Of a DNA stretch of 64,000 nucleotides, positions 6,866 to 59,112 are shown in pieces; positions within the stretch are counted from its first letter, which is position 1, and every line of letters begins with the position of its first letter. The notes beneath the pieces were generated by a model, which was given only the letters and a program-made list of their open reading frames with translations, ran no database searches and was not told the DNA's origin. Made by a program: the position numbers and the translations under genes. This stretch comes from Viridibacillus arenosi (GTDB lineage Bacteria; Bacillota; Bacilli; Bacillales_A; Planococcaceae), in assembly GCF_001955655.1 (NCBI RefSeq), contig NZ_MSPW01000003.1:186001-250000 (forward strand). Reading direction: 5' to 3'.

Positions 6866-7129
6866 TTAGTGTACTTCCTTTGCTTAGTATTTTAATAAAT
6901 TAATATGTAATTTGAATAAATAGTTAGTTTGATATTAAGATTAGAAAAAAACATTTTCTATTTTTTTTATGTTATCATTGTTCAAATTTACCAGTCAACT
7001 TTTGGATGTATTTACATAAATTTATTTATAGGAAATATCTTATAAATCATACGACTCAATAATATATATGGATAAATTTGCTATAATTATAAAAACGCTA
7101 TAAAAACTATAAGAGAAAGGAGCGACAAC

Positions 7130-7909
7130 ATGAATAAAAATGAACTAATATCACTATTCCATAAAGAACTTAGACAAGAAGCTCAAACACAAAGTTATTT
7201 AAGAGAGGAAACAGAGCATGTAGTACGACACATTTCACAGTTTGGCGAATCAGGATTCATAGTCGCATCTAATGTAAATGAAGATAATGCAAGAACAATC
7301 ATAAAGCAGGAGTTAGACTATTTTAGTAACCTAGGACAAGATTTTGAGTGGAAGGTGTATAGCTATGATAAGCCTGATAGTTTGAAAGATATTCTTGAAC
7401 AAGAAGGCTTTAGAGTAGATACAGCAGAAGCTCTTATGGTGATGAAGCTAGATGATCAGCATCACTTGCTAAAAAACAATCAATATTTCGGTTTAAAGGA
7501 ATTAACGGATGAAAAAGGCATTCAAGATATTGTTGATCTAGAAGATGCAATCTGGAATGAATCACATGCTGAGCTGGGTAAACGGCTTTGGAGAGATAAA
7601 CAAAATAATCCTGAAGCCTTATATCTTTATGGGATATATGAGGAGGCTAAGCTCGTAAGTGCCGCATGGATGTACATAGAGGCCAACTCATCGTTTGCAA
7701 GTTTATGGGGAGGTTCGACGCTACCTATGTATAGAGGAAAAGGATACTATACATCTTTGCTAGCTGTTCGCGCAAAAAAGGCATTTGAAAAAGGGCATCC
7801 TTTCCTTACTGTTGATGCCAGTCCAATGAGTAGACCAATCCTTGAAAAGAGTGGTTTTCTTTGTCTAGCATACTCTTACGGTTGTCAGTCGCCTTCTAGT
7901 AAATTGTAG
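7130..7909 (+). CDS. GNAT-family N-acetyltransferase
   Basis: The 259-residue protein has its acetyl-CoA domain in the C-terminal half: GIYEEAKLVSAAWMYIE, then YRGKGYYTSLL, the motif A pyrophosphate loop, and RPILEKSGF near the end. The N-terminal half (1-115) is a second degenerate GNAT-like or lineage-specific domain. A good ribosome binding site (AAAGGAG, about 7116) precedes ATG 7130. It is a single gene and the acceptor is unknown. Confidence 0.8.
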   Translation: MNKNELISLFHKELRQEAQTQSYLREETEHVVRHISQFGESGFIVASNVNEDNARTIIKQELDYFSNLGQDFEWKVYSYDKPDSLKDILEQEGFRVDTAEALMVMKLDDQHHLLKNNQYFGLKELTDEKGIQDIVDLEDAIWNESHAELGKRLWRDKQNNPEALYLYGIYEEAKLVSAAWMYIEANSSFASLWGGSTLPMYRGKGYYTSLLAVRAKKAFEKGHPFLTVDASPMSRPILEKSGFLCLAYSYGCQSPSSKL

Positions 7910-7958
7910 AACATCCTTTCAAAATTACGAGCATGTTTATTGAATAAGAAATATAAGA

Positions 7959-7992
7959 GTGATACATAATTTATTTAACTCCTATGTATCAC
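7959..7992 (+). terminator. Inverted repeat after the GNAT gene, probable weak terminator
   Basis: GTGATACATA (7959-7968) pairs perfectly with TATGTATCAC (7983-7992). There is no clean T run, so termination is plausible but not certain. I see no gene from 7993 to 8366. Confidence 0.5.
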
Positions 7993-8366
7993 CCTGTATC
8001 ATTTATTACTTTAGGGATATTGATAACATATACTAGGCTAACTTTGAAATGAAGGAATCGTTTTTCTCTTTGCTAAGGAAGCACCTGATGTGCTGAAGCA
8101 GTTCTCTTTAAATAAATGATGAAATTTATTAAATGAGTAAAGCTAGTACTATGGACGGGCAATAAACCGCATCAACAGGTAGTAGTCCAGCATATAATAA
8201 TTGTCATCGTCTTTGATATTCACAGCATTGGAGACAAAGACATTTGACTTCTTAGTTTATCTCCCATACTTTCTTCTGCTGCCTGTCCTTCTCTGAAAAT
8301 GGCTTCGATTATTCGATAAAGACTTGCATGTGTAAATGATTTAAAAATAATCAAAAGGAATTTATG

Positions 8367-8384
8367 TATAATTCGAGAATTATA
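8367..8384. promoter_or_regulatory. Perfect 18 bp palindrome, candidate operator/promoter
   Basis: TATAATTCGAGAATTATA is a perfect palindrome about 25 bases upstream of the ribosome binding site of the next small gene, and each end contains a -10-like TATAAT. The position fits a repressor site over a promoter. I do not recognise the regulator. Confidence 0.4.
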
Positions 8385-8421
8385 AGAATATAAGGTATAG
8401 ATTATTTTGGAGGGGATATTC

Positions 8422-8601
8422 ATCAATAAAAGGGTCAGAGTAATGATTAGTTTAATTAGTTGCCTGATTTTATGTGTTTTTGGGGTGTATAGTTTAATAA
8501 CTGCAAGTGCATCTGTAATTCCAGCTGTCTTATTTACCATTGGTGGTTTTATTGGATTTATAGATGGAATTTATGAAATTAAAAACTTTTATATTGCATG
8601 A
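8422..8601 (+). CDS. Small two-segment membrane protein with probable ATC start
   Basis: The product of about 59 residues has two hydrophobic segments (about 8-25 and 31-47) and a short polar tail. The ribosome binding site GGAGGGG (8409-8415) is followed after six bases by ATC AAT AAA AGG GTC, reading as (M)NKRVRVMISL. A TTG at 8407 overlaps the ribosome binding site and is unlikely, and the first ATG (8443) lies 27 bases beyond it. The most economical reading is that ATC 8422 replaced ATG. Either the gene is weakly translated from a rare codon or its start is mutated. A strong terminator follows. Confidence 0.6.
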   Translation: MNKRVRVMISLISCLILCVFGVYSLITASASVIPAVLFTIGGFIGFIDGIYEIKNFYIA

Positions 8602-13480: not shown

Positions 13481-13765
13481 AAAAAACCCCGTCCCAAGTA
13501 AGGGACGGGGTTAACCGCGATACCACCCTAATTCTATTGAAAACCGCTCAATAGCACTCAGCAACGTACAATCATACGTGTTCCTTTTAACGGCGGACAC
13601 CCGGATAGACCTACTGAATCTTCAGACTATCTTCTCAGAGAGGATCTTCACATTACACTTAAACACTGACTTGCACCGATCTGTCAGCTCTCTAGGGAAT
13701 AAGATGTAACGCTACTCTTTCTCATCAACGAATTTGTATGCTTTTATTGAGAATTATCGTAACAG
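13481..13765 (-). promoter_or_regulatory. T-box leader of ileS (Ile, AUC specifier)
   Basis: Read on the minus strand: an AGAGAG bulge, the distal-loop GGTGCAAG, then GAAGATCCTC with the specifier ATC at 13645-13643, followed by the antiterminator AGGGTGGTATCGCGGTT (13530-13513) and a GC-rich terminator (CCCCGTCCC/GGGACGGGG) ending in T6 (13511-13481). Uncharged tRNA-Ile(GAU) would stabilise the antiterminator and allow ileS transcription. Note TATCGCG in place of the usual TACCGCG. Confidence 0.93.
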
Positions 13766-38328: not shown

Positions 38329-38585
38329 AAAAAGCCCCCCATAGAGACTATTCTCTATGGAGGGCGGAAATTCCGCGGTACCACCTCAATTGCAGCAAAA
38401 AACGCTACCACTATAAGCGATATAACGATTCGCCAATCGAACTGCCATACTCAACTTTCAAGCAGTCACTCAAAGGTCCATTCCATCAGTTGCTACGTAT
38501 CGGTTTCCACCTAACCCGACTCTCTATCCGCGCATTCCTTAAGTACTAATCCTTATCTACGAGTTCTGTTATACAATTGTGGTAA
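38329..38585 (-). promoter_or_regulatory. T-box leader of trpEG (Trp, UGG specifier)
   Basis: On the minus strand: AGAGAG, distal loop GGTGGAAACC, GGAATGGACC with specifier TGG at 38480-38478, the antiterminator GAGGTGGTACCGCGG (38391-38377), and a terminator (GCCCTCCATAGAGA/TCTCTATGGGGGGC) followed by T5 (38366-38329). Uncharged tRNA-Trp would switch the operon on. Confidence 0.95.
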
Positions 38586-41308: not shown

Positions 41309-43537
41309 CTATGATTGCACATTAACTAAAGTACTTTTACTACGATTATGTGCTTGATCAATAGCATAAAAAGAAACAGTTGAATTTCTCTTTAACTTTT
41401 TAATTTTCAAAGTGAATTTACCTGAAGATTTCACTTCGGTTTTAGCCAATATCGTTTTCCCTTTTTTCATTTCAATTATTGAAAACGGTTCAGCAGTACC
41501 CGTTATGATTGTTGAGTGACTTGTTACCTTATTTACTTTTGGCTTAGCTGGTGCCGTTTTATCTATAACTGTCAATCTTTTTACTGGGCTCGAATTGCCT
41601 TGTTTATCTGTAATATAGACGGTTAATTGACTATTAGCCTCTTGTTTTTTAATAGCAGCAATATAGCTACCATTTGATTGGACAGTAGCTTGAGCTATTT
41701 TTTTATTGCCTTTATAAATTAAAAAAGTCGTATTTGCTTCGGCAGTACCGCTTACATTTATACTCCGATCAGATACCTTTTTTACTGAAGGTGAATGTAA
41801 AACTTTCTTCAGAGGTGTTTGAATGATGATTGCTACACCTTTCGATATATTTTTAGATTCGTCTTCTGTTTTCACTTCGATTTTATACGTTTGACTAGGG
41901 TTCAGATTACGTATTGTATATGTAGATTCTTTCGTCGTAGCCACTTTTTTATTATTTACGTATATTTTAGACTGTTTAAAGTCTTCGCTTGACGGCTTTC
42001 TCCAATTAATCGTTGCAGCATTAATTTTAATTGATGAAGCTATTAATTTTGTCACCTCAGCAGGGGGGCTGATGTCCTTTAACGTATGCAATTGCAGGTC
42101 TGTACCATTGGATGATCTTCCGTCTCGACTTACAACTTTCAAAGTAATCTTATAGTCTTTTGAAGCCTGTAATTTTTTCATTGTATATTTATTTGAAGTA
42201 GTGGTTGTTACTAGTTTATCATCTAAAAAAATGGCTACTTTTTTAACGTTCGTATCATTTGGTAATGAAAAACTAACAGTCGCTGTATGATCGGTTACTT
42301 TTTCAATTTGAGGATCAACCAAATCTTCAATGACTGAGTCTTCGGCTTGTGGGTATTGAACTAGACCATGCCCATATAAATTGTCAATACCTGTTATACC
42401 AAGGTCAATTGCCTGTTCATCTAATTTTGCACGTAATTCTTTCGCTGATAAAAATGGATATTGTTGTTTTAATAGTGCGAGAATCCCTGTAACATGAGGA
42501 GCTGCATAGGAAGTACCGCTAGCATAAATCAATTTGCCATCCTTATTTATCGTTGGTACAGCTTCACCTGGAGCAGTAAGATTCATTGATGACCCTGTAT
42601 TTGAGAACGAACTAATCTTTTGTTTAGCACTAACAGATGAAACGGCAATAACTTGACTATATCTTGCAGGATACGTAACATTTCTGTCATTGCCATCATT
42701 TCCAGCTGATGCAACAATTAAAATACCGGCGTTATAAGCTTTTTGAATAGCATTTCGTAGTGCAGGTACATCAATATATAATCCAGATGAAATATTAATA
42801 ATGTCCATTTTGTTTGCAATTGCCCAGTCAATTGATTTGACGATTTCTGTTGTAGTCCCACTCGTTGTGCCATCCGCATATTTCAAGGAATACAATTGAA
42901 CATTTGGTGCAACCCCAATAACATCACTTGTTTTTTGGTCTTTTAAATAGCCACCAACTCTCGCTCCAATGACTGCAGCTACTGATGTACCGTGACCATT
43001 ATTTCTTATACCTCCACGATCCACATTGTCTGATTCTTTAATGGTTGTTTCTGGCAGATCCCTTACAAAGGATACTCTTCTCGCAACATTTGGCAAATCA
43101 TCAATGAGGTTAATCCCTGTATCAATAATTGCTACTTTTACTTTATTGCCAAAAATACCGCTATCCCATGCTACAGGTGTATTAATTAAACTTAGATTCC
43201 AAGTAGGTACTAACAAAGGTTGAACCGGTGTATCCAAATCAGCTAAAGTCATAGGTGCTTCTTTTGTATCAACAAATTCAATGTTCGGATCTTTTTTTAG
43301 TTCAGATAATTGCTGTTCAGTTAAAGTTACCTCAACCATTTCCACGTTATGCAGTACTTCATTGACATCTTCCACGTCACCTAACACCTTCTGCTTACCT
43401 TCTTCATTCTTATATGAGATCAACGCATTGATTGTATCTTCTTCAGCGTAAGCGGATTGATGGTTATCGGATAAGGTCCATAAAGCTGTTAAAGCAAGAC
43501 ATGAAATACTAATATTTTTCCATAATTTCTTCTTCAC
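41309..43537 (-). CDS. Cell-surface subtilisin-like serine protease with FN3 and Ig-like repeats
   Basis: The product of about 742 residues has a signal peptide, an I9-type propeptide (about 35-95), a subtilase S8 catalytic domain (Asp in VAIIDTGIN, His in GHGTSVAAVIG, Asn in ASAGNDGN, Ser in ASGTSYAAPHVTG), two fibronectin III-like domains and two C-terminal Big_6-type Ig repeats (GTAEANTTFLIYKGNKKIAQ; GTAEPFSIIEMKKGKTILAK). It has no LPXTG; the basic repeats may hold it to the wall. GTG 43537 lies 10 bases from GGGGG. Its repeats resemble those of the barrel protein at 48184-49755. Confidence 0.9.
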   Translation of the reverse strand: MKKKLWKNISISCLALTALWTLSDNHQSAYAEEDTINALISYKNEEGKQKVLGDVEDVNEVLHNVEMVEVTLTEQQLSELKKDPNIEFVDTKEAPMTLADLDTPVQPLLVPTWNLSLINTPVAWDSGIFGNKVKVAIIDTGINLIDDLPNVARRVSFVRDLPETTIKESDNVDRGGIRNNGHGTSVAAVIGARVGGYLKDQKTSDVIGVAPNVQLYSLKYADGTTSGTTTEIVKSIDWAIANKMDIINISSGLYIDVPALRNAIQKAYNAGILIVASAGNDGNDRNVTYPARYSQVIAVSSVSAKQKISSFSNTGSSMNLTAPGEAVPTINKDGKLIYASGTSYAAPHVTGILALLKQQYPFLSAKELRAKLDEQAIDLGITGIDNLYGHGLVQYPQAEDSVIEDLVDPQIEKVTDHTATVSFSLPNDTNVKKVAIFLDDKLVTTTTSNKYTMKKLQASKDYKITLKVVSRDGRSSNGTDLQLHTLKDISPPAEVTKLIASSIKINAATINWRKPSSEDFKQSKIYVNNKKVATTKESTYTIRNLNPSQTYKIEVKTEDESKNISKGVAIIIQTPLKKVLHSPSVKKVSDRSINVSGTAEANTTFLIYKGNKKIAQATVQSNGSYIAAIKKQEANSQLTVYITDKQGNSSPVKRLTVIDKTAPAKPKVNKVTSHSTIITGTAEPFSIIEMKKGKTILAKTEVKSSGKFTLKIKKLKRNSTVSFYAIDQAHNRSKSTLVNVQS

Positions 43538-43860
43538 TGTTATGAGACCCCCTTTCTTCATTTTTTTAGCATAAAGTCTAATATTATGTATATTTTATTC
43601 TACTTAATAGACTTTCACAAATTTAATATATTTTTAGCTCTATGAAGATTACGTGTTTCATAAGTAAAGAATACGTGTAACCCTCCTTACTGGAAGAATT
43701 GCAATTTCAACATAATTCCGGCAATGTTTATCTTATCCTTTTTATAAGCAAAAAAGATCTTCGAGTCCGGATGTTCGATTGTTCATTAAGTCTGTCATTG
43801 ATATCGAAACAGACATAGAAAACGAAGAATGCTGATTGAAATTGAAAGCAAGCTGTATCA

Positions 43861-43919: not shown

Positions 43920-44648
43920 CTAGTTGTTCAACATCCCGTATTTCACTTTTATTCGTTCTAATTTTTCACCAATCGGTTTGGCTAAAACGAGTAAAAAAAC
44001 GACATTTGATACTACATAGACAATCGTAAACGGAATAGCTGTTGACATTGCAATTAAATACCTTTTCCAAGAAAACAATCCATCATAAGAAATGACCGTC
44101 CAAATGTCCATACAGAAGGAATACATTATTCCAGCAAAAACCCCATAAATAATAAGTGCTATTTTACTTTTCATCCAACCTTTTTGTCCTAATAGACCAG
44201 CGATAAAACCAAGGATTCCCCATGTAAACATTTGAAATGGCGTCCAAGGACCTTGTCCGAAAAAGATGTTCGATGCTATGGCAGATGTCGCTCCTGTAAG
44301 AAAACCTGCTTCCGCTCCGAAAGCAAATCCGGTAATGGCTGTAATGGCCGTCACTGGCTTGAAAGCTGGAATCCAAATGAATGCTGCACGACCTGCAACG
44401 GAAATAGCCGACATAACAGCTATCGTTAAAATTTCTCGTGCTTGTGGTTTTCTTCTTTCAAATGAAACAAAGAATGGCACACATGCTAATAATACGATAA
44501 TCATAGATATAAGATTGTATTTACGATCATTTAAGATAGTCACTCCAATAAGCATGACGATTGGAATAACTACAAAAATGATGATACTGGAGAAAATTAG
44601 ACGTTTACGGGAGTAGTTGTCTGCTCGAGCTGTTGATTGTGCTTGCAT
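43920..44648 (-). CDS. ECF transporter S component, probable cobalamin type
   Basis: The 242-residue integral membrane protein has about 7 helices. It matches the ECF S-component group that includes CbrT: REILTIAVMSAISVAGRAAF, FKPVTAITAITGFAFGAEAGF, GQGPWTPFQMFTWGILGFIAG. The S component binds the vitamin from outside and delivers it through EcfT/EcfA. It overlaps the ATPase gene by 52 bases, so it is translated as part of the same message. A cobalamin riboswitch controls the operon, which supports a corrinoid substrate. Confidence 0.87.
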   Translation of the reverse strand: MQAQSTARADNYSRKRLIFSSIIIFVVIPIVMLIGVTILNDRKYNLISMIIVLLACVPFFVSFERRKPQAREILTIAVMSAISVAGRAAFIWIPAFKPVTAITAITGFAFGAEAGFLTGATSAIASNIFFGQGPWTPFQMFTWGILGFIAGLLGQKGWMKSKIALIIYGVFAGIMYSFCMDIWTVISYDGLFSWKRYLIAMSTAIPFTIVYVVSNVVFLLVLAKPIGEKLERIKVKYGMLNN

Positions 44649-46303
44649 AACGAAATCACGTCCTCACTTGTCACTGCAAAATCATATAAATGACGCGACA
44701 TTCGATGCGCTGCAGTTGTATAAAAATTATTTCCACTGTAAAACAGTTTTGGTTCATCCTCAGAAACAATATTGCCATCAAAGAACATTGCACAACGGTC
44801 AGAATATTGCGCTGAAAACTCAATATCATGTGTAACCATTACAACGGCCACACGACGCTTTTTAAGCGCTTGTAGTACTTCGGCGAATATTTCCTTAGAA
44901 TATGCATCAATGCCCTTTGTAGGTTCGTCTAGAAGGATTATTTTAGGGTTTAGTAACAAGACTTTTGCTAAAGCAACTTTTTGTTGTTCTCCCCCGCTCA
45001 AATCATATGGATGACTATCTAATAAATGTCCGATATTAAGTGTTGTGATAATTTCATTCAACTGTACATTGGCTGCCTCTTTTGAGATGCCTAAGACGTC
45101 TATTATACTATCGAATTCAAGTTGTACTTTCTTTTCAACGAGTAGTGTTAATGGGTCCTGTGGTAAAACAGCTAAATTATTTCGATACAATTCGCCATTT
45201 GAAAACTTTTTAATGGATTTACCATTGATGAAGACTTTTCCTCGATACGGTTTATATAAACCTGACATTACACCTAGTGCAGTTGTTTTCCCTGTACCGT
45301 TCCCCCCTAAAATACTAACAATCTCCCCAGCACGTACTTGCATGGAGAAACCTCTTAATACATCTTGAGCATTCTTTTCATAACGGAACCATGCTTCTTT
45401 AACTTCCAAGACAATGTCATCAGGTGGAATCTCTGAACTCAATTTACTTTCTAAAGCTCGTAATTCATTAGTAAAGTGCTTTGTTAGCCAATTTCGACCA
45501 TCTCTTATGGTTAGTGGAACAATGTCATTGATTTGCAATGCATTATTAATACGCACTGGTGTTGGTAAGCCTAGCATCATTGGATGAGAGGCATCGAATG
45601 CTTTTAATTGCTGTGCAACATCCTGCGGGGAATCATTACAAATAATGCGCCCTTTTTCCATGACCACAACGCGATCTGCTATTGGGAAAACCTCTTCTAA
45701 GCGATGTTCTACAAGAATAATTGTTAATCCAAGTTCTTTATTTAACTTTTGCAAAGTACCGATGAATTCCGTAGCCGCAATTGGATCAAGCTGAGATGTC
45801 GGTTCATCTAAAATCAATAATTTGGGTTGCATTGCCATAATCGCTGCAAGATTTAGCAGTTGCTTTTGGCCGCCTGATAATTCCATCGTACTTTTTCTAA
45901 ACCACTGCTGAATACCGAAGAAATTCGCCATTTCAGCCACTCTACGTCGAATTGTCATCGTGTCCAATCCTAAATTTTCTAGACCGAAAGACAATTCATG
46001 CCACACTTTATCAGTGACAATTTGATTTTCTGGATTTTGCATAACAAAACCTATTTCAGAAGCTGCCACGCGATCAGGTAAATCGGCCAATGCAGTACCC
46101 GCATAAAGGATAGTCCCTGATTTATCTCCATGAGGAGCTATCTCTCTTTTTAAATGTTTTAATAACGTACTTTTACCGCAGCCAGATGTACCACAAAGAA
46201 CAGCAAATTCACCTTCTTCAATTATTAAATTGATATCATCTAATACTCGCTCGTGTTTGTCTGGATATTGGAAATTTACATGTTGTATTTCAATGAGCGC
46301 CAT
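44597..46303 (-). CDS. ECF transporter double ATP-binding protein
   Basis: The 568-residue protein fuses two ABC ATPases. Domain one: Walker A GTSGCGKSTLL, signature LSGGQKQLLNLAA, Walker B LLILDEPTSQLD. Domain two (from about 300): GGNGTGKTTALG, LSGGEQQKVALAK, IILLDEPTKGID. Most ECF systems have separate EcfA and EcfA'; here both lie in one chain, as in the CbrU/YkoD type. It powers import with EcfT and the S component, and overlaps EcfT by 28 bases. Confidence 0.92.
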   Translation of the reverse strand: MALIEIQHVNFQYPDKHERVLDDINLIIEEGEFAVLCGTSGCGKSTLLKHLKREIAPHGDKSGTILYAGTALADLPDRVAASEIGFVMQNPENQIVTDKVWHELSFGLENLGLDTMTIRRRVAEMANFFGIQQWFRKSTMELSGGQKQLLNLAAIMAMQPKLLILDEPTSQLDPIAATEFIGTLQKLNKELGLTIILVEHRLEEVFPIADRVVVMEKGRIICNDSPQDVAQQLKAFDASHPMMLGLPTPVRINNALQINDIVPLTIRDGRNWLTKHFTNELRALESKLSSEIPPDDIVLEVKEAWFRYEKNAQDVLRGFSMQVRAGEIVSILGGNGTGKTTALGVMSGLYKPYRGKVFINGKSIKKFSNGELYRNNLAVLPQDPLTLLVEKKVQLEFDSIIDVLGISKEAANVQLNEIITTLNIGHLLDSHPYDLSGGEQQKVALAKVLLLNPKIILLDEPTKGIDAYSKEIFAEVLQALKKRRVAVVMVTHDIEFSAQYSDRCAMFFDGNIVSEDEPKLFYSGNNFYTTAAHRMSRHLYDFAVTSEDVISLCKHNQQLEQTTTPVNV

Positions 46304-47157
46304 TTAATTGCCTCCCGAATTTCAATCACAATAGGTATTACTAGTAAACTAGCATAAGAAATATAAAGTCCTATGCTAATTGGAGTTAAAGCTAATTCAG
46401 TAAACGTTGGATAAAAATAATACGTCGTCATACCAAAGTAACTGCCAATAATATTCGTTAAAAGAAGTGTTAATATGATCCCGAGCAAAAAACCATCTCT
46501 TTTTTCAAAAACGAATAATGAAAATGTGGAACGGTTTTTCAAGCCATAACCACGTGCTTTCATCGAATCAGCCGTCTCAATTGCATTTTCAAGCGCCCAA
46601 GTTATAAGAATGGAGATAATGCGAATCCCGCTTTTTACTCTTTGCCATGGGTTGCCGGCTGAAATATCCATGCCTATTGTTTTTTGTGCATGTGAAATAA
46701 TAGTAATTTGATGTTTAAAACGCGGGACAAGACGTAATGTTAATGAAATGACCAGCGCTAGTGCGGGAGATACCTTACCGAATAAATAAAGAAATTTATC
46801 GGATGTCATTACAACGTTATAACAACCAAACCAAAAAATGACTGAACAGATCATAATCGACATCGCAAATCCATAAACAATAGCCTCTAATGTTATAGCA
46901 TTATAATCTATGTAAAATAGAATGATTTCCCCATCATGACTAATAAGTGGATTAATAATTGCAGCGATAAAAAACATCGGCACGAAAAATTTTAAGCCGC
47001 TAACAAATGATTTTCTATTCAGTAATAGACTTAATGTAATTGCTCCAATACATGTAATGAGTAAATAAACTGGATGCATATAGAACATGGAAAGTCCGAT
47101 GACAGATGCAAAATATGCGAAAAGGACAATGGGGTGATACGTTTCAAATGCTTTCAT
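46276..47157 (-). CDS. ECF transporter transmembrane component (EcfT)
   Basis: The 293-residue protein has about 5-6 membrane helices and the long cytosolic coupling helices of EcfT, with the second signature SMKARGYG (about 208-215) and a first-helix region around SHAQKTIGMDI. It transmits ATPase movement to the S component. AGAGGAG lies 12 bases before ATG 47157. It starts 26 bases after the lipoprotein gene. Confidence 0.9.
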   Translation of the reverse strand: MKAFETYHPIVLFAYFASVIGLSMFYMHPVYLLITCIGAITLSLLLNRKSFVSGLKFFVPMFFIAAIINPLISHDGEIILFYIDYNAITLEAIVYGFAMSIMICSVIFWFGCYNVVMTSDKFLYLFGKVSPALALVISLTLRLVPRFKHQITIISHAQKTIGMDISAGNPWQRVKSGIRIISILITWALENAIETADSMKARGYGLKNRSTFSLFVFEKRDGFLLGIILTLLLTNIIGSYFGMTTYYFYPTFTELALTPISIGLYISYASLLVIPIVIEIREAIKWRSLKYNM

Positions 47158-47182
47158 GATGCATAGTACTCCTCTTTAATCA

Positions 47183-48109
47183 TTATTTACCTATGTCGCG
47201 ACCTAGATCAACAGTGTATTGGAATTGAATATTGTCTCCATTTTTCACAGTAACTGCGCTAACCCCATAACTAGGGAACTGACCGTTTACAGAATACATC
47301 CAGCCACTTAGATCACCTGCATCAAATTCATATAAATGATTCATGCCTTCAATATAGACCGACCCATATTGATTTTCACCCGCTCCTTCATACTCAAGAT
47401 GAATACCATGTTCATTTGTCGCACGTCTTAAAATAGACCAAACCGTTTCATCTTCGTTTAAGATTTCATATTTAGTTGACTTTAAAATAACGCCGTTTTT
47501 TGGGACGTATTTTTCACTTTGTAATGCAGGTTTTAACATATCCCAATGTGTCAGCAATGTTGTAGCACTAATGGAGATGGTCACATATTCTTTTTTCTTT
47601 TCATCTTCTTTATTAGGCTTACTTGGCTTTTGAGCGACGTTATTATTTTCGGGTTTTTTATCTTTGTCTGGCTTTTGATCTTTTGACGGTGATTTATCCT
47701 TAGATGGAGCTGGACTTTTATCTGGCTTCTCTTTATTTGAACTAGTCGAAGTATCGTTACTAGGTGTTTTCGAAGTTGGTGTTGATTCAGTTTTAGATGT
47801 GCTAGTTGGTTGATCTTTTTTTGGCGTTACCTCTGCTTCATTTTTTTGTTCCTTTTGCTTTGTTTCTGTCTTTTTCTCTTCTTCTTTATTTGGCTTTTCA
47901 GCATCTATTGTTGAATCCTTTTCTATTTCTTCCTTTGTTGATTCTTCACCTTTATCTCCTTTAACGATTACCTTAGTCTCACTTGCTCCATAAACACTTT
48001 GTTCTTGCTCAGTTTGATTATTATATTCTTCAACTGATTGAATCTTACAGCCAGTGATAATGATCAATGAGAGAATCATCATTAGCCATAATGGTATTAA
48101 TTTTTTCAT
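47183..48109 (-). CDS. DUF4430 (transcobalamin beta-domain-like) lipoprotein
   Basis: The 308-residue protein has a lipobox IITGC (Cys near 20), then about 150 residues of disordered Lys/Glu/Ser/Thr/Pro linker (KDKSPSKDQKPDKDKKPE) and a C-terminal DUF4430 domain (about 175-308) with ETVWSILRRATNEHGIHLEY, DLSGWMYSVNGQFPSYGV and VKNGDNIQFQYTVD. DUF4430 is the fold of the C-terminal domain of transcobalamin and intrinsic factor. The long linker would let it reach through the wall. It lies between the barrel protein and EcfT. ATG 48109 is 6 bases from GAGGTG. I infer corrinoid capture at the membrane. Confidence 0.88.
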   Translation of the reverse strand: MKKLIPLWLMMILSLIIITGCKIQSVEEYNNQTEQEQSVYGASETKVIVKGDKGEESTKEEIEKDSTIDAEKPNKEEEKKTETKQKEQKNEAEVTPKKDQPTSTSKTESTPTSKTPSNDTSTSSNKEKPDKSPAPSKDKSPSKDQKPDKDKKPENNNVAQKPSKPNKEDEKKKEYVTISISATTLLTHWDMLKPALQSEKYVPKNGVILKSTKYEILNEDETVWSILRRATNEHGIHLEYEGAGENQYGSVYIEGMNHLYEFDAGDLSGWMYSVNGQFPSYGVSAVTVKNGDNIQFQYTVDLGRDIGK

Positions 48110-48138
48110 ATATCGCACCTCTTCTTATAGATGGGAAT

Positions 48139-48168
48139 AGGGTGCTGGAGATAAACTCCAACACCCTT
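48139..48168 (-). other. Intercistronic hairpin between barrel and DUF4430 genes
   Basis: AGGGTGCTGGAG (48139-48150) pairs with CTCCAACACCCT (48156-48167), one bulge, without a T run. It could stabilise the upstream message or act as a partial terminator or processing site that sets unequal levels of the two exported proteins. Confidence 0.55.
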
Positions 48169-48183
48169 CCTATATATTTCAAG

Positions 48184-49755
48184 TTATTTCGTTTTAACCG
48201 TTACTTTTGTCACGTTACTTTTGTTACCAGCCTTGTCTTTGGCATAGACTGTTAATTTAGTATTAGCCTTTTGATTTTTAATTTTAACAGTAAATTGCCC
48301 CTTACTATTTACAGTACCTTTACCGATAGACGTTTTACCTTTTAGTACATACACTTTTGCACCTTTTTCAGCTGTACCAGTCACTTTATTAGTCGACTTT
48401 GTTACTTTTTTAACTGATGGTGCTTTAGGAGCCGTTTTATCAGCTACTTTTAATGTGAATGCTTTGCTCTTATTTTTAGATGCATCTGTAACATAAATTT
48501 TCAATGTTGAATTAGCTTTTTGCTTTTTGATTGTTAAAGAGTATGTGCCTTTTGTAGATGCAGTAGTTGATGCTAGTAGCTTAGAGCCGTTATAAATCGT
48601 AACTTTCGCTCCTGCTTCAGCTTTGCCTTTAACAATTGTTGTTTGATCACTAACTTTATTAGCTGTTGCTACTTCAGGTGCTGTAATGTCAAATTTAAGT
48701 GACTCTGCAGCATCAGACATATCATAAATACGGTTTTTGCCTTTTACAAAGCGGTCATATGCAGCAAGTGCACGTAATCCTTGATCTGAAGACATTAAGT
48801 TTGGAATTTTAAGTGATAAACCGCTTTTTAATCCACCTGTAGCACTATCTACAAAACTTACTAGGTTAGAAACAGCCCAGTTACCATTACCTTTGACGAA
48901 ACGTGGATCCGTCTTTGGATTTGTTTGATTAGACGTTAAATTGATGATGAATTGAGATACCGTTTCAGGGCTGTCACCTTTTGCCCACTCTGAGTAGAAA
49001 CCACCTTGTTCACCTAGTTCTTTACCTAAATAATCATTTGCTTTTTCAACTGCTGCTTTTACCTTGTCATCCTTTGTATAAGGTGCTAAAGCCGTAGCCG
49101 TCATTGATGTTGAATCTTTATCAGATCCATAATCTAGAGCCCACGCAAATGATCCATCTTCAAATTGATCTTTTACTAAATCATTTACTAATTTAGTTCT
49201 TGTAATCTCTGCATATTTCGATTCCGTTGATAAATCATAATTTTTCGTATCAATAGCATTTAAGAAATGAAATTTATTCCCATTAGTTAATTTTTCTGCT
49301 TTTTCTGTAGCTAAATATGTATCATACATAGACTTAACTAAATCATATCCCCCAATATTACGTGGATCTTTGTTGATTGCTGTTAGTGCAATAATGACTT
49401 TTGAATATTTACCAACGTCTTCAGAGATTTTGCCATCTTTACTTTTAACCTCTTTGACTAGATTATTGTAATAAGTTTCATAGTATTTAGATGGAACTGG
49501 TACGCTAGCACGAGCGAAATCAGTTACGTAGTCTTCATCACCAAATGATGGATTCGGCACTTGTTGTAGTAAAAATGCCGCTGTTGAATTTAGAACGTTT
49601 TTATAACTGACATCTTTCGCTGGTACTTGAACTGTCGCTGACGTATTTTCTGCAGCGTTTACTGTCGACAATTGTCCTGGTAGTTGTGAAAACGCTAATA
49701 AACTTGCCATACCGATTGGTGCTGCCCATTTTCTTACCCATTTACTTTTGTACAT
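48184..49755 (-). CDS. Secreted alpha/alpha-barrel (intrinsic-factor alpha-domain-like) protein with Ig-like repeats
   Basis: The 523-residue protein has a signal peptide cut near VNAAEN. Residues of about 45-360 form an alpha/alpha toroid of the prenyltransferase/terpenoid-cyclase type: YSKVIIALTAINKDPRNIGG, FEDGSFAWALDYGSDKDSTS, SPETVSQFIINLTS, SSDQGLRALAAYDRF. Two very basic Big_6-type repeats (about 365-520) follow. The toroid is the same fold as the cobalamin-binding alpha domain of intrinsic factor. It is the first gene behind the B12 riboswitch. ATG 49755 follows ATGGGGG by 7 bases. Binding of corrinoid is inferred from fold and context; I cannot verify contact residues. Confidence 0.85.
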   Translation of the reverse strand: MYKSKWVRKWAAPIGMASLLAFSQLPGQLSTVNAAENTSATVQVPAKDVSYKNVLNSTAAFLLQQVPNPSFGDEDYVTDFARASVPVPSKYYETYYNNLVKEVKSKDGKISEDVGKYSKVIIALTAINKDPRNIGGYDLVKSMYDTYLATEKAEKLTNGNKFHFLNAIDTKNYDLSTESKYAEITRTKLVNDLVKDQFEDGSFAWALDYGSDKDSTSMTATALAPYTKDDKVKAAVEKANDYLGKELGEQGGFYSEWAKGDSPETVSQFIINLTSNQTNPKTDPRFVKGNGNWAVSNLVSFVDSATGGLKSGLSLKIPNLMSSDQGLRALAAYDRFVKGKNRIYDMSDAAESLKFDITAPEVATANKVSDQTTIVKGKAEAGAKVTIYNGSKLLASTTASTKGTYSLTIKKQKANSTLKIYVTDASKNKSKAFTLKVADKTAPKAPSVKKVTKSTNKVTGTAEKGAKVYVLKGKTSIGKGTVNSKGQFTVKIKNQKANTKLTVYAKDKAGNKSNVTKVTVKTK

Positions 49756-49812
49756 GTTGAAATCCCCCATATCTTTTTGTGAATTATTAGTAGTTTTCAC
49801 TTCAAAAGGATA

Positions 49813-49851
49813 CAAAAAAATGTAAAAGGGCAAAAAAATATCCCTTTACAC
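49813..49851 (-). terminator. Riboswitch-controlled terminator
   Basis: On the minus strand TGTAAAGGG and CCCTTTTACA form a stem followed by T7, between the B12 riboswitch and the first operon gene. It is the expected expression platform. Confidence 0.8.
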
Positions 49852-49957
49852 AATGCAAAGAGATTTTGGACGGCGAAATGCCAGAAAAATGTACAGTTAT
49901 ATACAAAAAGGCCTTCGATGCTCCAAATCTCCCCCTCGAAGATTGAAACTACATTAT

Positions 49958-50118
49958 AAAAGCAGGTCTCCTGGCTTGTGTATCTATTTACTCTTGTTCC
50001 TTCCCAGCGCATTATACATGCACCAGTGGTTTGCAACAATTTCATCCACACTTACAGTAGCGGGGCTGCATCGGATTTACACCGATTTCCCTTTTAGCTT
50101 ATGATCAACATAAGCACT
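49958..50118 (-). promoter_or_regulatory. Cobalamin (B12) riboswitch
   Basis: On the minus strand: GGGAAATCGGTGTAAATCC, then GCAGCCCCGCTACTGT, and the B12 box GCCAGGAGACC (49975-49965). These are the conserved blocks of the adenosylcobalamin riboswitch. With a terminator downstream, bound cobalamin should turn the operon off. Confidence 0.95.
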
Positions 50119-50242
50119 CTTATAAGAACTATTTAATTGTCTATTAATCTAAAGTATTTCATAAAAGTTTTAGAATGTAAATTAATATTTTTTATTGTAT
50201 TAAAATTCAGACTTTTTCGTATTAAAACAATAAAAACATAAT

Positions 50243-58963: not shown

Positions 58964-59112
58964 CAAAAAAACCTCTCCTTGATAAGAAGAGGTTGGCGAT
59001 ATGTCCATGCACTCTTCTTATCTTCAAGCATACGCTTCTGGAATTAGCACGGTACATCGTCCGTTGCTGAGATTTCATAGGGCCAGTCCCTCCACCTCTC
59101 TGGATAAGAAAA
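58964..59112 (-). promoter_or_regulatory. SAM-I (S-box) riboswitch with terminator
   Basis: On the minus strand: CTTATCCAGAGAGGTGGAGG, GACTGGCCC, ATGAAATCTCAGCAACGG, then the anti-element and terminator (AACCTCTTCTT..AGAGGTTTTTTTG, ending near 58964). These are the conserved SAM-I blocks. SAM binding should stop transcription of the cyclase-GNAT operon. Confidence 0.95.

Follow-up and report, generated by a model that had tools for sequence, protein, structure and literature searches.

Burroughs, Balaji, Iyer and Aravind defined the SLBB superfamily in 2007, including in it the beta domain of transcobalamin, and described bacterial proteins in which an SLBB domain and an alpha/alpha toroid are fused in either order and encoded in operons with CbiO-like and CbiQ-like genes (PMC1796856). 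On the basis of other genomes than the one considered here, they proposed a B12-scavenging role for these proteins, with the vitamin bound by the two domains together, reported that carriers of the toroid-SLBB combination usually lack key enzymes of B12 synthesis, and suggested that animals acquired their B12 carrier from Gram-positive bacteria (PMC1796856). Here we describe an operon of this kind from Viridibacillus arenosi, found in a 64,000-nucleotide stretch of contig NZ_MSPW01000003.1 (assembly GCF_001955655.1, positions 186,001 to 250,000 of the forward strand; hereafter the window, whose numbering is used throughout). Behind a cobalamin riboswitch, the operon encodes a secreted toroid protein, a lipoprotein with a DUF4430 domain, and an energy-coupling factor (ECF) importer.

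That the operon serves corrinoid uptake is well supported by sequence comparison. More specifically, it is probable, in our opinion, that the system scavenges a corrinoid (B12 or a precursor), the toroid and DUF4430 proteins binding one corrinoid between them and passing it to a CbrT-like ECF importer. The core of this idea is already in print as a prediction (Burroughs et al. 2007), and among the titles and opening lines of abstracts of open-licence papers we found no experimental test of B12 binding by bacterial toroid or DUF4430 proteins. To this we add a form divided between two anchored proteins, the link to CbrT, the riboswitch control, and three toroid-free minimal versions of the system.

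The operon falls within the class predicted in 2007, since it encodes an exported SLBB protein of the transcobalamin clade (here taken to be equivalent to DUF4430) and a toroid, both with a surface location, together with CbiO and CbiQ genes. It departs from the description in the text of that paper, which covers fusions and paralogous SLBB proteins, in that the toroid of the window is a separate protein (PMC1796856). It also has an S component and a riboswitch; the operon description in that text names no S component, and the main text does not use the word "riboswitch" (PMC1796856). With the animal carriers intrinsic factor, transcobalamin and haptocorrin the system shares the toroid and DUF4430 folds and, in its one-chain relatives, the order alpha-then-beta; sequence identity in the fold alignments is 12–15%. 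Unlike these single-chain carriers, the window has two genes for two exported proteins with surface anchors, and an ECF importer instead of a receptor; one-chain forms occur among its relatives.

The importer shares the S component family and the ECF principle with ECF-CbrT of Lactobacillus delbrueckii (6FNP), for which transport of cobalamin and cobinamide has been shown experimentally (PMC5997447). In that organism cbrS adjoins cbrT, and CbrT and other S components use one ECF module in common (PMC5997447), while in the window the ECF module is encoded together with the S component. The latter differs from CbrT (6fnp chain A) by an N-terminal extension of roughly 50 residues. Bacteroides, too, has surface lipoproteins for B12, BtuG and BtuH. 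The principle they share with the system of the window is that a lipoprotein on the cell surface captures B12 before it reaches the transporter (PMC6143338, PMC8941943). BtuG and BtuH are other proteins, however, and act in an outer-membrane setting.

Organization of the operon and identity of the importer

All elements of the operon lie on the minus strand of the window, in a host genome of 4.43 Mb, and follow one another in the order cobalamin riboswitch, terminator-like hairpin, toroid protein, DUF4430 lipoprotein, EcfT, double EcfA and S component. A first-pass annotation of the sequence had named these genes in this order behind a clear cobalamin riboswitch. All of them are present, and the riboswitch aptamer (49944–50136) matches the covariance model RF00174 over its full length (1–189 of 189), scoring 123.4 bits where the gathering score is 31.5; it reaches 18 bases beyond position 50118, at which that annotation had ended the locus. 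Between the aptamer and the first gene lies an intrinsic-terminator-like hairpin with a U7 run (49814–49851), which is likely the expression platform. Its stem of 10 base pairs forms within a stretch of 71 bases (-13.2 kcal/mol, z -2.5; 4 of 200 shuffles were equally stable); a consensus terminator scan gives a different, overlapping stem at 49840–49864. Plain scans of the region were not clearly above chance for either terminators (6 found, 4.1 expected) or promoters (27 found, 27.6 expected).

The ECF part comprises EcfT, a CbiQ-type transmembrane coupling protein (46276–47157; PF02361 at 35.9 bits, above the cut-off of 25), the fused double ATPase EcfA-A' (44597–46303; two ABC_tran stretches, TIGR04520 with 367.4 bits) and an S component of 242 residues (43920–44648; PF07155 and PF12822). 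Thus, S, T and two A components are encoded together, as in the group I layout. When a profile of 29 S components was compared with solved structures, 6fnp chain A matched with E 8.2e-20, and the next match, a different S component (4hzu_S), with E 0.061; the S component is therefore closer to CbrT than to other S components. The nearest named relative found, Viridibacillus soli (L144), has the same operon, with an S component 91% identical.

Because of the CbrT relationship and the riboswitch, corrinoid import is the best reading of the ECF part. The possibility that it imports cobalt or nickel rather than a corrinoid must be considered, since EcfT is of the CbiQ family and a cobalt CbiQ-type set in the host also stands beside a cobalamin riboswitch. 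That set, with CbiQ matching TIGR02454 and neighbours resembling CbiM, CbiN and CbiO by eye, is separate from the operon, however, and both it and a NikA-type binding protein of the host have their own nearby riboswitches. CbiMNQO systems are not known to include two large exported binding proteins. With a CbrT-like S component in addition, a metal importer is very improbable.

Folds of the two exported proteins

The first-pass annotation had equated the barrel and DUF4430 folds with the alpha and beta halves of intrinsic factor and transcobalamin, and had described wall-type immunoglobulin (Ig)-like repeats on the barrel protein and a linker of about 150 residues on the lipoprotein. Structural models and profile matches agree with it on each of these points, with the reservation, taken up below, that terpene cyclases match the barrel somewhat better.

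The barrel protein (48184–49755) has 523 residues counted from its likely start, an ATG at 49755 preceded by a GGGGG stretch; the open reading frame extends back to 49833 (48184–49833, 549 codons). It begins with a signal peptide, recognized by eye, and continues with the toroid and two Big_6 repeats. No Pfam family matched its N-terminal part. An AlphaFold2 model built with 62 relatives (pLDDT 94.1, pTM 0.92) folds the segment 48640–49650 as an alpha/alpha toroid of twelve helices, the last part of the segment entering the first Ig repeat. This is the fold of the alpha domain in the transcobalamin and intrinsic factor binders, and it is common to many enzymes: the model aligns with intrinsic factor 3kq4 at Z 19.5 (rmsd 3.4, 260 residues aligned), with transcobalamin 8ixt at Z 19.3 and with haptocorrin 4kki at Z 19.1.

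The Big_6 repeats (PF17936, E 9.2e-38 in two stretches) occupy approximately 48193–48690, or residues 382–547 of the 549-codon frame, and may attach the protein to the cell wall. A phmmer search with the barrel protein gave matches confined to these repeats, for example to the biofilm-associated surface protein 7dm0. The repeats also match other proteins of the same genome, among them a neighbouring subtilase. The latter, encoded directly downstream of the operon (41309–43561, minus strand), carries fibronectin III and two Big_6 repeats.

Conservation within the toroid averages 2.37 bits at the N-ends of the inner helices and 1.67 bits at those of the outer helices, with inner and outer assigned by alternation along the chain rather than from coordinates. 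The strongly conserved polar residues D177, D179, T181, E229, Q233 and Q290 lie at helix N-ends; D248 does not. Since the C-ends of the inner helices score equally high (2.43 bits), and 394 of 10,000 random placements reach the N-end value, conservation does not single out one mouth of the barrel.

The DUF4430 lipoprotein (47183–48118) has a lipobox-like ITGC motif with Cys24, a low-complexity linker of about 150 residues rich in lysine, glutamate and proline, and a C-terminal domain resembling the transcobalamin beta domain (47213–47449; PF14478, 57.8 bits, residues 224–302 of 311). An alignment of this domain shows a conserved SGWMY-VNG motif. A phmmer search with the window protein found nothing, and comparison of a DUF4430 profile with solved structures gave nothing credible (best E 0.58); the beta-grasp fold of the beta domain is seen in the model of a fused relative, and is assigned to the window protein through the PF14478 match. 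Among 100 stand-alone DUF4430 proteins adjoining EcfT, taken from both sets of loci described below and with uncurated start codons, 60 have a lipobox-like motif and 96 an N-terminal hydrophobic stretch. A membrane tether therefore looks general, its kind varying.

The fused relative, L147, is a natural one-chain protein of Bacillus ndiopicus that carries DUF4430 behind the toroid, with a short linker between them. Its AlphaFold2 model has pLDDT 89.3 and pTM 0.69. In a Foldseek search of the PDB, ranks 1–15 are filled by transcobalamin, haptocorrin and intrinsic factor structures, with E values from 6.3e-12 to 7.3e-8, and the first terpene cyclase follows after them at E 1.3e-5. Taken alone, the DUF4430 part aligns with the beta domain of human transcobalamin in isolated form (5no0; TMt 0.81, rmsd 2.6) and with the Ruminococcus gnavus protein 3u7z (TMt 0.74).

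Other architectures were seen among the loci. One-chain toroid-DUF4430 proteins with two hydrophobic, probably membrane-crossing segments between the domains occur mostly in Clostridia (L174, L184, L186, L192, L204, L208, L210, L219, L222 and others); judged by eye from the alignment, they might form a membrane hairpin with both domains on the outer side. In several of the loci picked by S component (see below), the ECF-linked protein is a chain of this kind. In L095, L096, L100 and L101, surface proteins of about 2000 codons with the order DUF4430-toroid-DUF4430 lie ahead of the split pair.

Co-occurrence and conserved gene neighbourhoods

The association of the two proteins was assessed in a sample of 250 same-family genomes, drawn from a larger group. 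Of these, 56 have the toroid and 59 have DUF4430, and each of the 56 with a toroid also has DUF4430 (hypergeometric probability 1e-52, uncorrected for kinship). Sixty-three same-family loci, including that of the window, were examined. EcfT was detected in 57, and in 57 of 57 both proteins are encoded upstream of it, a count that tests linkage to the ECF genes rather than co-occurrence, because the loci had been chosen for holding a toroid or DUF4430. The six left out are L086 and L125, whose sequence is truncated or cropped, L107, where genome G133 has its second toroid/DUF4430 locus, and the toroid-free loci L122–L124. A profile finds the S component in 52 of the 57 loci with EcfT, and misses it in L108, L111, L114, L126 and L127.

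The survey of neighbourhoods for barrel, DUF4430 and ECF genes that the first-pass annotation had called for was also carried out from the side of the importer. An S-component alignment was searched against a collection described as 84,980 species genomes, and the best 80 of at least 596 matching stretches, at least 586 of which encode a relative, were retained. Most of these loci are, to judge from their record titles, from Clostridia. EcfT was detected in 72 of the 80, with at least 2.5 kb of sequence upstream of it in 65. Both proteins are encoded upstream of EcfT in 57 of these 65 testable loci, and DUF4430 in 60. Where toroid and DUF4430 genes are separate and upstream of EcfT, reading of the gene listings places DUF4430 nearer to it.

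Riboswitch control is likewise conserved in the family of the window. A B12 box with at most one mismatch, on the operon strand and within a span from 900 bases ahead of the operon's first toroid or DUF4430 gene to 60 bases into it, is found in 51 of the 57 same-family loci with EcfT. Of the same-family loci, seven carrying the operon and the toroid-free L122 were compared with Rfam, and all 8 had full cobalamin riboswitches on the operon strand; they include L095 and L113, both of which the box rule had missed. The mere presence of a riboswitch in a genome was tried as a marker and was useless, being positive in 250 of 250 genomes.

A further line of evidence is the repeated change between one and two chains. 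A FastTree tree was built from 180 toroid domains, 89 in frames without DUF4430 and 91 in frames with it in either order ("fused"), after exclusion of toroid matches shorter than 270 or longer than 430 residues or below 150 bits; seven species are in the tree twice, and it contains long branches. At least 18 changes between the one-chain and two-chain states are required, or 11 when only well supported branches are considered. Since shuffled labels need about 60 changes, the states are also clustered. Such repeated joining and splitting is as expected of partners that work together.

Contrary evidence and alternative explanations

Several results, gathered in this section, weigh against the proposal that toroid and DUF4430 jointly bind a corrinoid for the CbrT-like importer. 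To begin with, the toroid by itself points elsewhere. Its best matches in fold comparison are terpene cyclases (2sqc, Z 22.9, rmsd 3.3, 266 residues aligned), and its sequence profile meets squalene-hopene cyclases, the best relatives in the PDB, first (E 2.8e-17) and not the animal carriers. PF01122 (Cobalamin_bind) is above its cut-off in none of 22 genomes; 4 of the 22 have a match at E ≤0.1, the best (E 0.0018) being to a stand-alone toroid paralogue. Among 34 barrels none is above the cut-off either, with 4 at E ≤0.1 and a best E of 0.002. The toroid fold alone thus leaves the function undecided, because terpene cyclases outscore intrinsic factor. In the L147 model, too, the best VIA-align matches are terpene cyclases, over the toroid alone (Z 23.3); transcobalamin, over both domains, reaches Z 19.0.

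A barrel protein that is itself a class II terpene cyclase would account for these similarities, and the invariant Asp179 of the model aligns with the DVDD stretch of squalene-hopene cyclase. The catalytic motif of class II terpene cyclases is DXDD. None of the 63 barrels of one alignment and none of the 34 of the other has it (the window sequence being in both sets), and on this ground the cyclase reading was set aside. The barrel is, moreover, exported, placed behind a B12 riboswitch and tied to DUF4430, which makes an enzyme of this class highly unlikely.

The joint binding of one corrinoid is affected by the model of the fused relative and by loci without a toroid. The first-pass annotation had proposed superposition on transcobalamin. 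The L147 model overlays holo-transcobalamin domain by domain only: each domain fits singly, and both together do not (rmsd about 24 Å). In this model, which included no ligand, the domains are well predicted but their mutual placement is not, and no closed arrangement is seen; this might be so in an apo, flexibly linked protein. In addition, three genomes (L122, L123, L124) have DUF4430 and a CbrT-like S component, with no toroid or EcfT found in the 16 kb around them. L122 has a DUF4430 gene (7097–8155) with a lipobox and a full Rfam cobalamin riboswitch (8370–8543); L123 and L124, checked for the box alone, have a B12 box with one and two mismatches, respectively.

Similar cases occur among the eight S-picked loci, out of the 65, that do not have both proteins upstream. 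In L185 and L209 DUF4430 was found without a toroid; the sequence of L209 extends no more than 2 kb past its DUF4430 gene. L193 combines an upstream DUF4430 with downstream toroids, and what lies downstream is a fused toroid-DUF4430 protein in L208 and DUF4430 in L164. L195, L199 and L211 have neither toroid nor DUF4430 in more than 5 kb upstream of EcfT. Given these last three and the three toroid-free genomes, the toroid is not indispensable everywhere. The count of 57 in 65 is itself not fully independent, because toroid-linked loci supplied the S-component query and 7 of the 80 loci come from species that are in the family set as well. The riboswitch is less general as well: the B12 box rule is satisfied by 17 of the 72 S-picked loci with EcfT, and an Rfam riboswitch is present in 1 of 7 tested, all of them loci without a close box. 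It is therefore a trait of the family of the window and some others, not of the whole set.

These observations raise the alternative that the DUF4430 lipoprotein alone donates to the S component, the toroid being an independent corrinoid store in the wall or a binder of something else, with no closing of the two. The toroid-free loci, with L122 retaining both riboswitch and lipobox, agree with this, as do the position of DUF4430 nearer to EcfT in split loci and the unclosed domains of the AlphaFold2 model. It is also in line with a second exported toroid protein of the host (L051:6502–8313, contig C11, minus strand). This protein of 603 residues, a toroid with Ig repeats, is about 30% identical to the window barrel over a stretch and has a cobalamin riboswitch 230 bases upstream; no DUF4430 or EcfT was found in the 16 kb of sequence examined around it. 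It is a candidate for a further corrinoid catcher. An independent toroid sits poorly, however, with the repeated fusion and fission and the co-occurrence in 56 of 56 genomes, and with one-chain relatives that share both folds and domain order with transcobalamin. We consider a DUF4430 donor acting alone unlikely.

The remaining contrary evidence concerns the need for B12 and the exact ligand. The host genome has nine cobalamin riboswitches. Near them are metE, a class I ribonucleotide reductase, part of a cbi synthesis cluster in which CbiD and CbiH exceed their cut-offs, the cobalt CbiQ-type set, the NikA-type protein, and BtuF- and BtuC-like genes, below curated cut-offs, beside cbiB and cobS. 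Loci of this B12 regulon are L233–L237. An association of the system with loss of B12 synthesis was examined and rejected: CbiD, which alone is not the whole corrin pathway, occurs in 20 of the 56 genomes with a toroid and in 61 of the 194 without one (p 0.63). Organisms that have corrin synthesis genes thus also carry the system, which differs from the 2007 statement on synthesis loss (PMC1796856). With corrin genes and a BtuF/BtuC-like importer in the host and no association with CbiD, B12 need alone does not explain the system.

The ligand could then be a corrinoid precursor or a non-B12 cobamide (e.g., cobinamide, cobyric acid, or a cobamide with another lower ligand) rather than cobalamin itself. 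The corrin-ring genes of the host and the BtuF/BtuC-like importer beside cbiB and cobS make a plain need for B12 look weak, and CbrT also carries cobinamide (PMC5997447). No sequence feature that we examined separates these ligands. The riboswitch class, for its part, senses cobalamin forms, which counts against this alternative. We regard it as somewhat doubtful, although it deserves more weight than the others discussed here.

Elsewhere in the window, also on the minus strand, two T-box leaders and one SAM riboswitch were found (13498–13737, 38357–38568 and 59015–59110).

Proposed mechanism

The following scheme is the one we favour for the joint scavenging of a corrinoid by toroid and DUF4430. 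When corrinoid is scarce, the riboswitch would let transcription pass the terminator, which is the usual behaviour of the class. The toroid and DUF4430 proteins would then bind one corrinoid between them at the interface of wall and membrane, with the ligand driving assembly; the long linker would let the lipoprotein swing between wall and membrane. The tethered DUF4430 protein would deliver the corrinoid to the CbrT-like S component, and the dedicated EcfT/EcfAA' module would drive the S component's corrinoid across the membrane.

The weakest steps of this scheme are closing and delivery. It is likely, we infer, that the two halves close around the corrinoid. The alpha and beta domains of human transcobalamin, expressed apart, assemble only with cobalamin (PMC5599065), and a two-protein version is therefore plausible. 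As regards delivery, the toroid-free minimal loci point to DUF4430 as the member of the pair closer to the importer. In a more specific form of the scheme, to which we give slightly less than even weight, the separate toroid and DUF4430 proteins act in trans, joining only around a corrinoid, after which a DUF4430 shuttle docks on the S component. Such a shuttle would give ECF importers a substrate-delivery protein, as in classical ABC importers, and the second riboswitch-controlled toroid of the host could share it.

Implications

Extramembrane capture of cobamides is less known in Firmicutes (PMC8941943), and in ECF transporters the S component has been described as the substrate-binding protein (PMC5997447). 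If the proposed function is correct, a delivery pair ahead of a CbrT-type importer adds a step to the ECF scheme. The same arrangement is present in many loci of the S-component survey, where many record titles name gut and rumen Clostridia. Bacteria such as V. arenosi would then be living relatives in which the halves of intrinsic factor are separate, and the 2007 proposal that animals acquired their carrier from bacteria (PMC1796856) would become directly testable.

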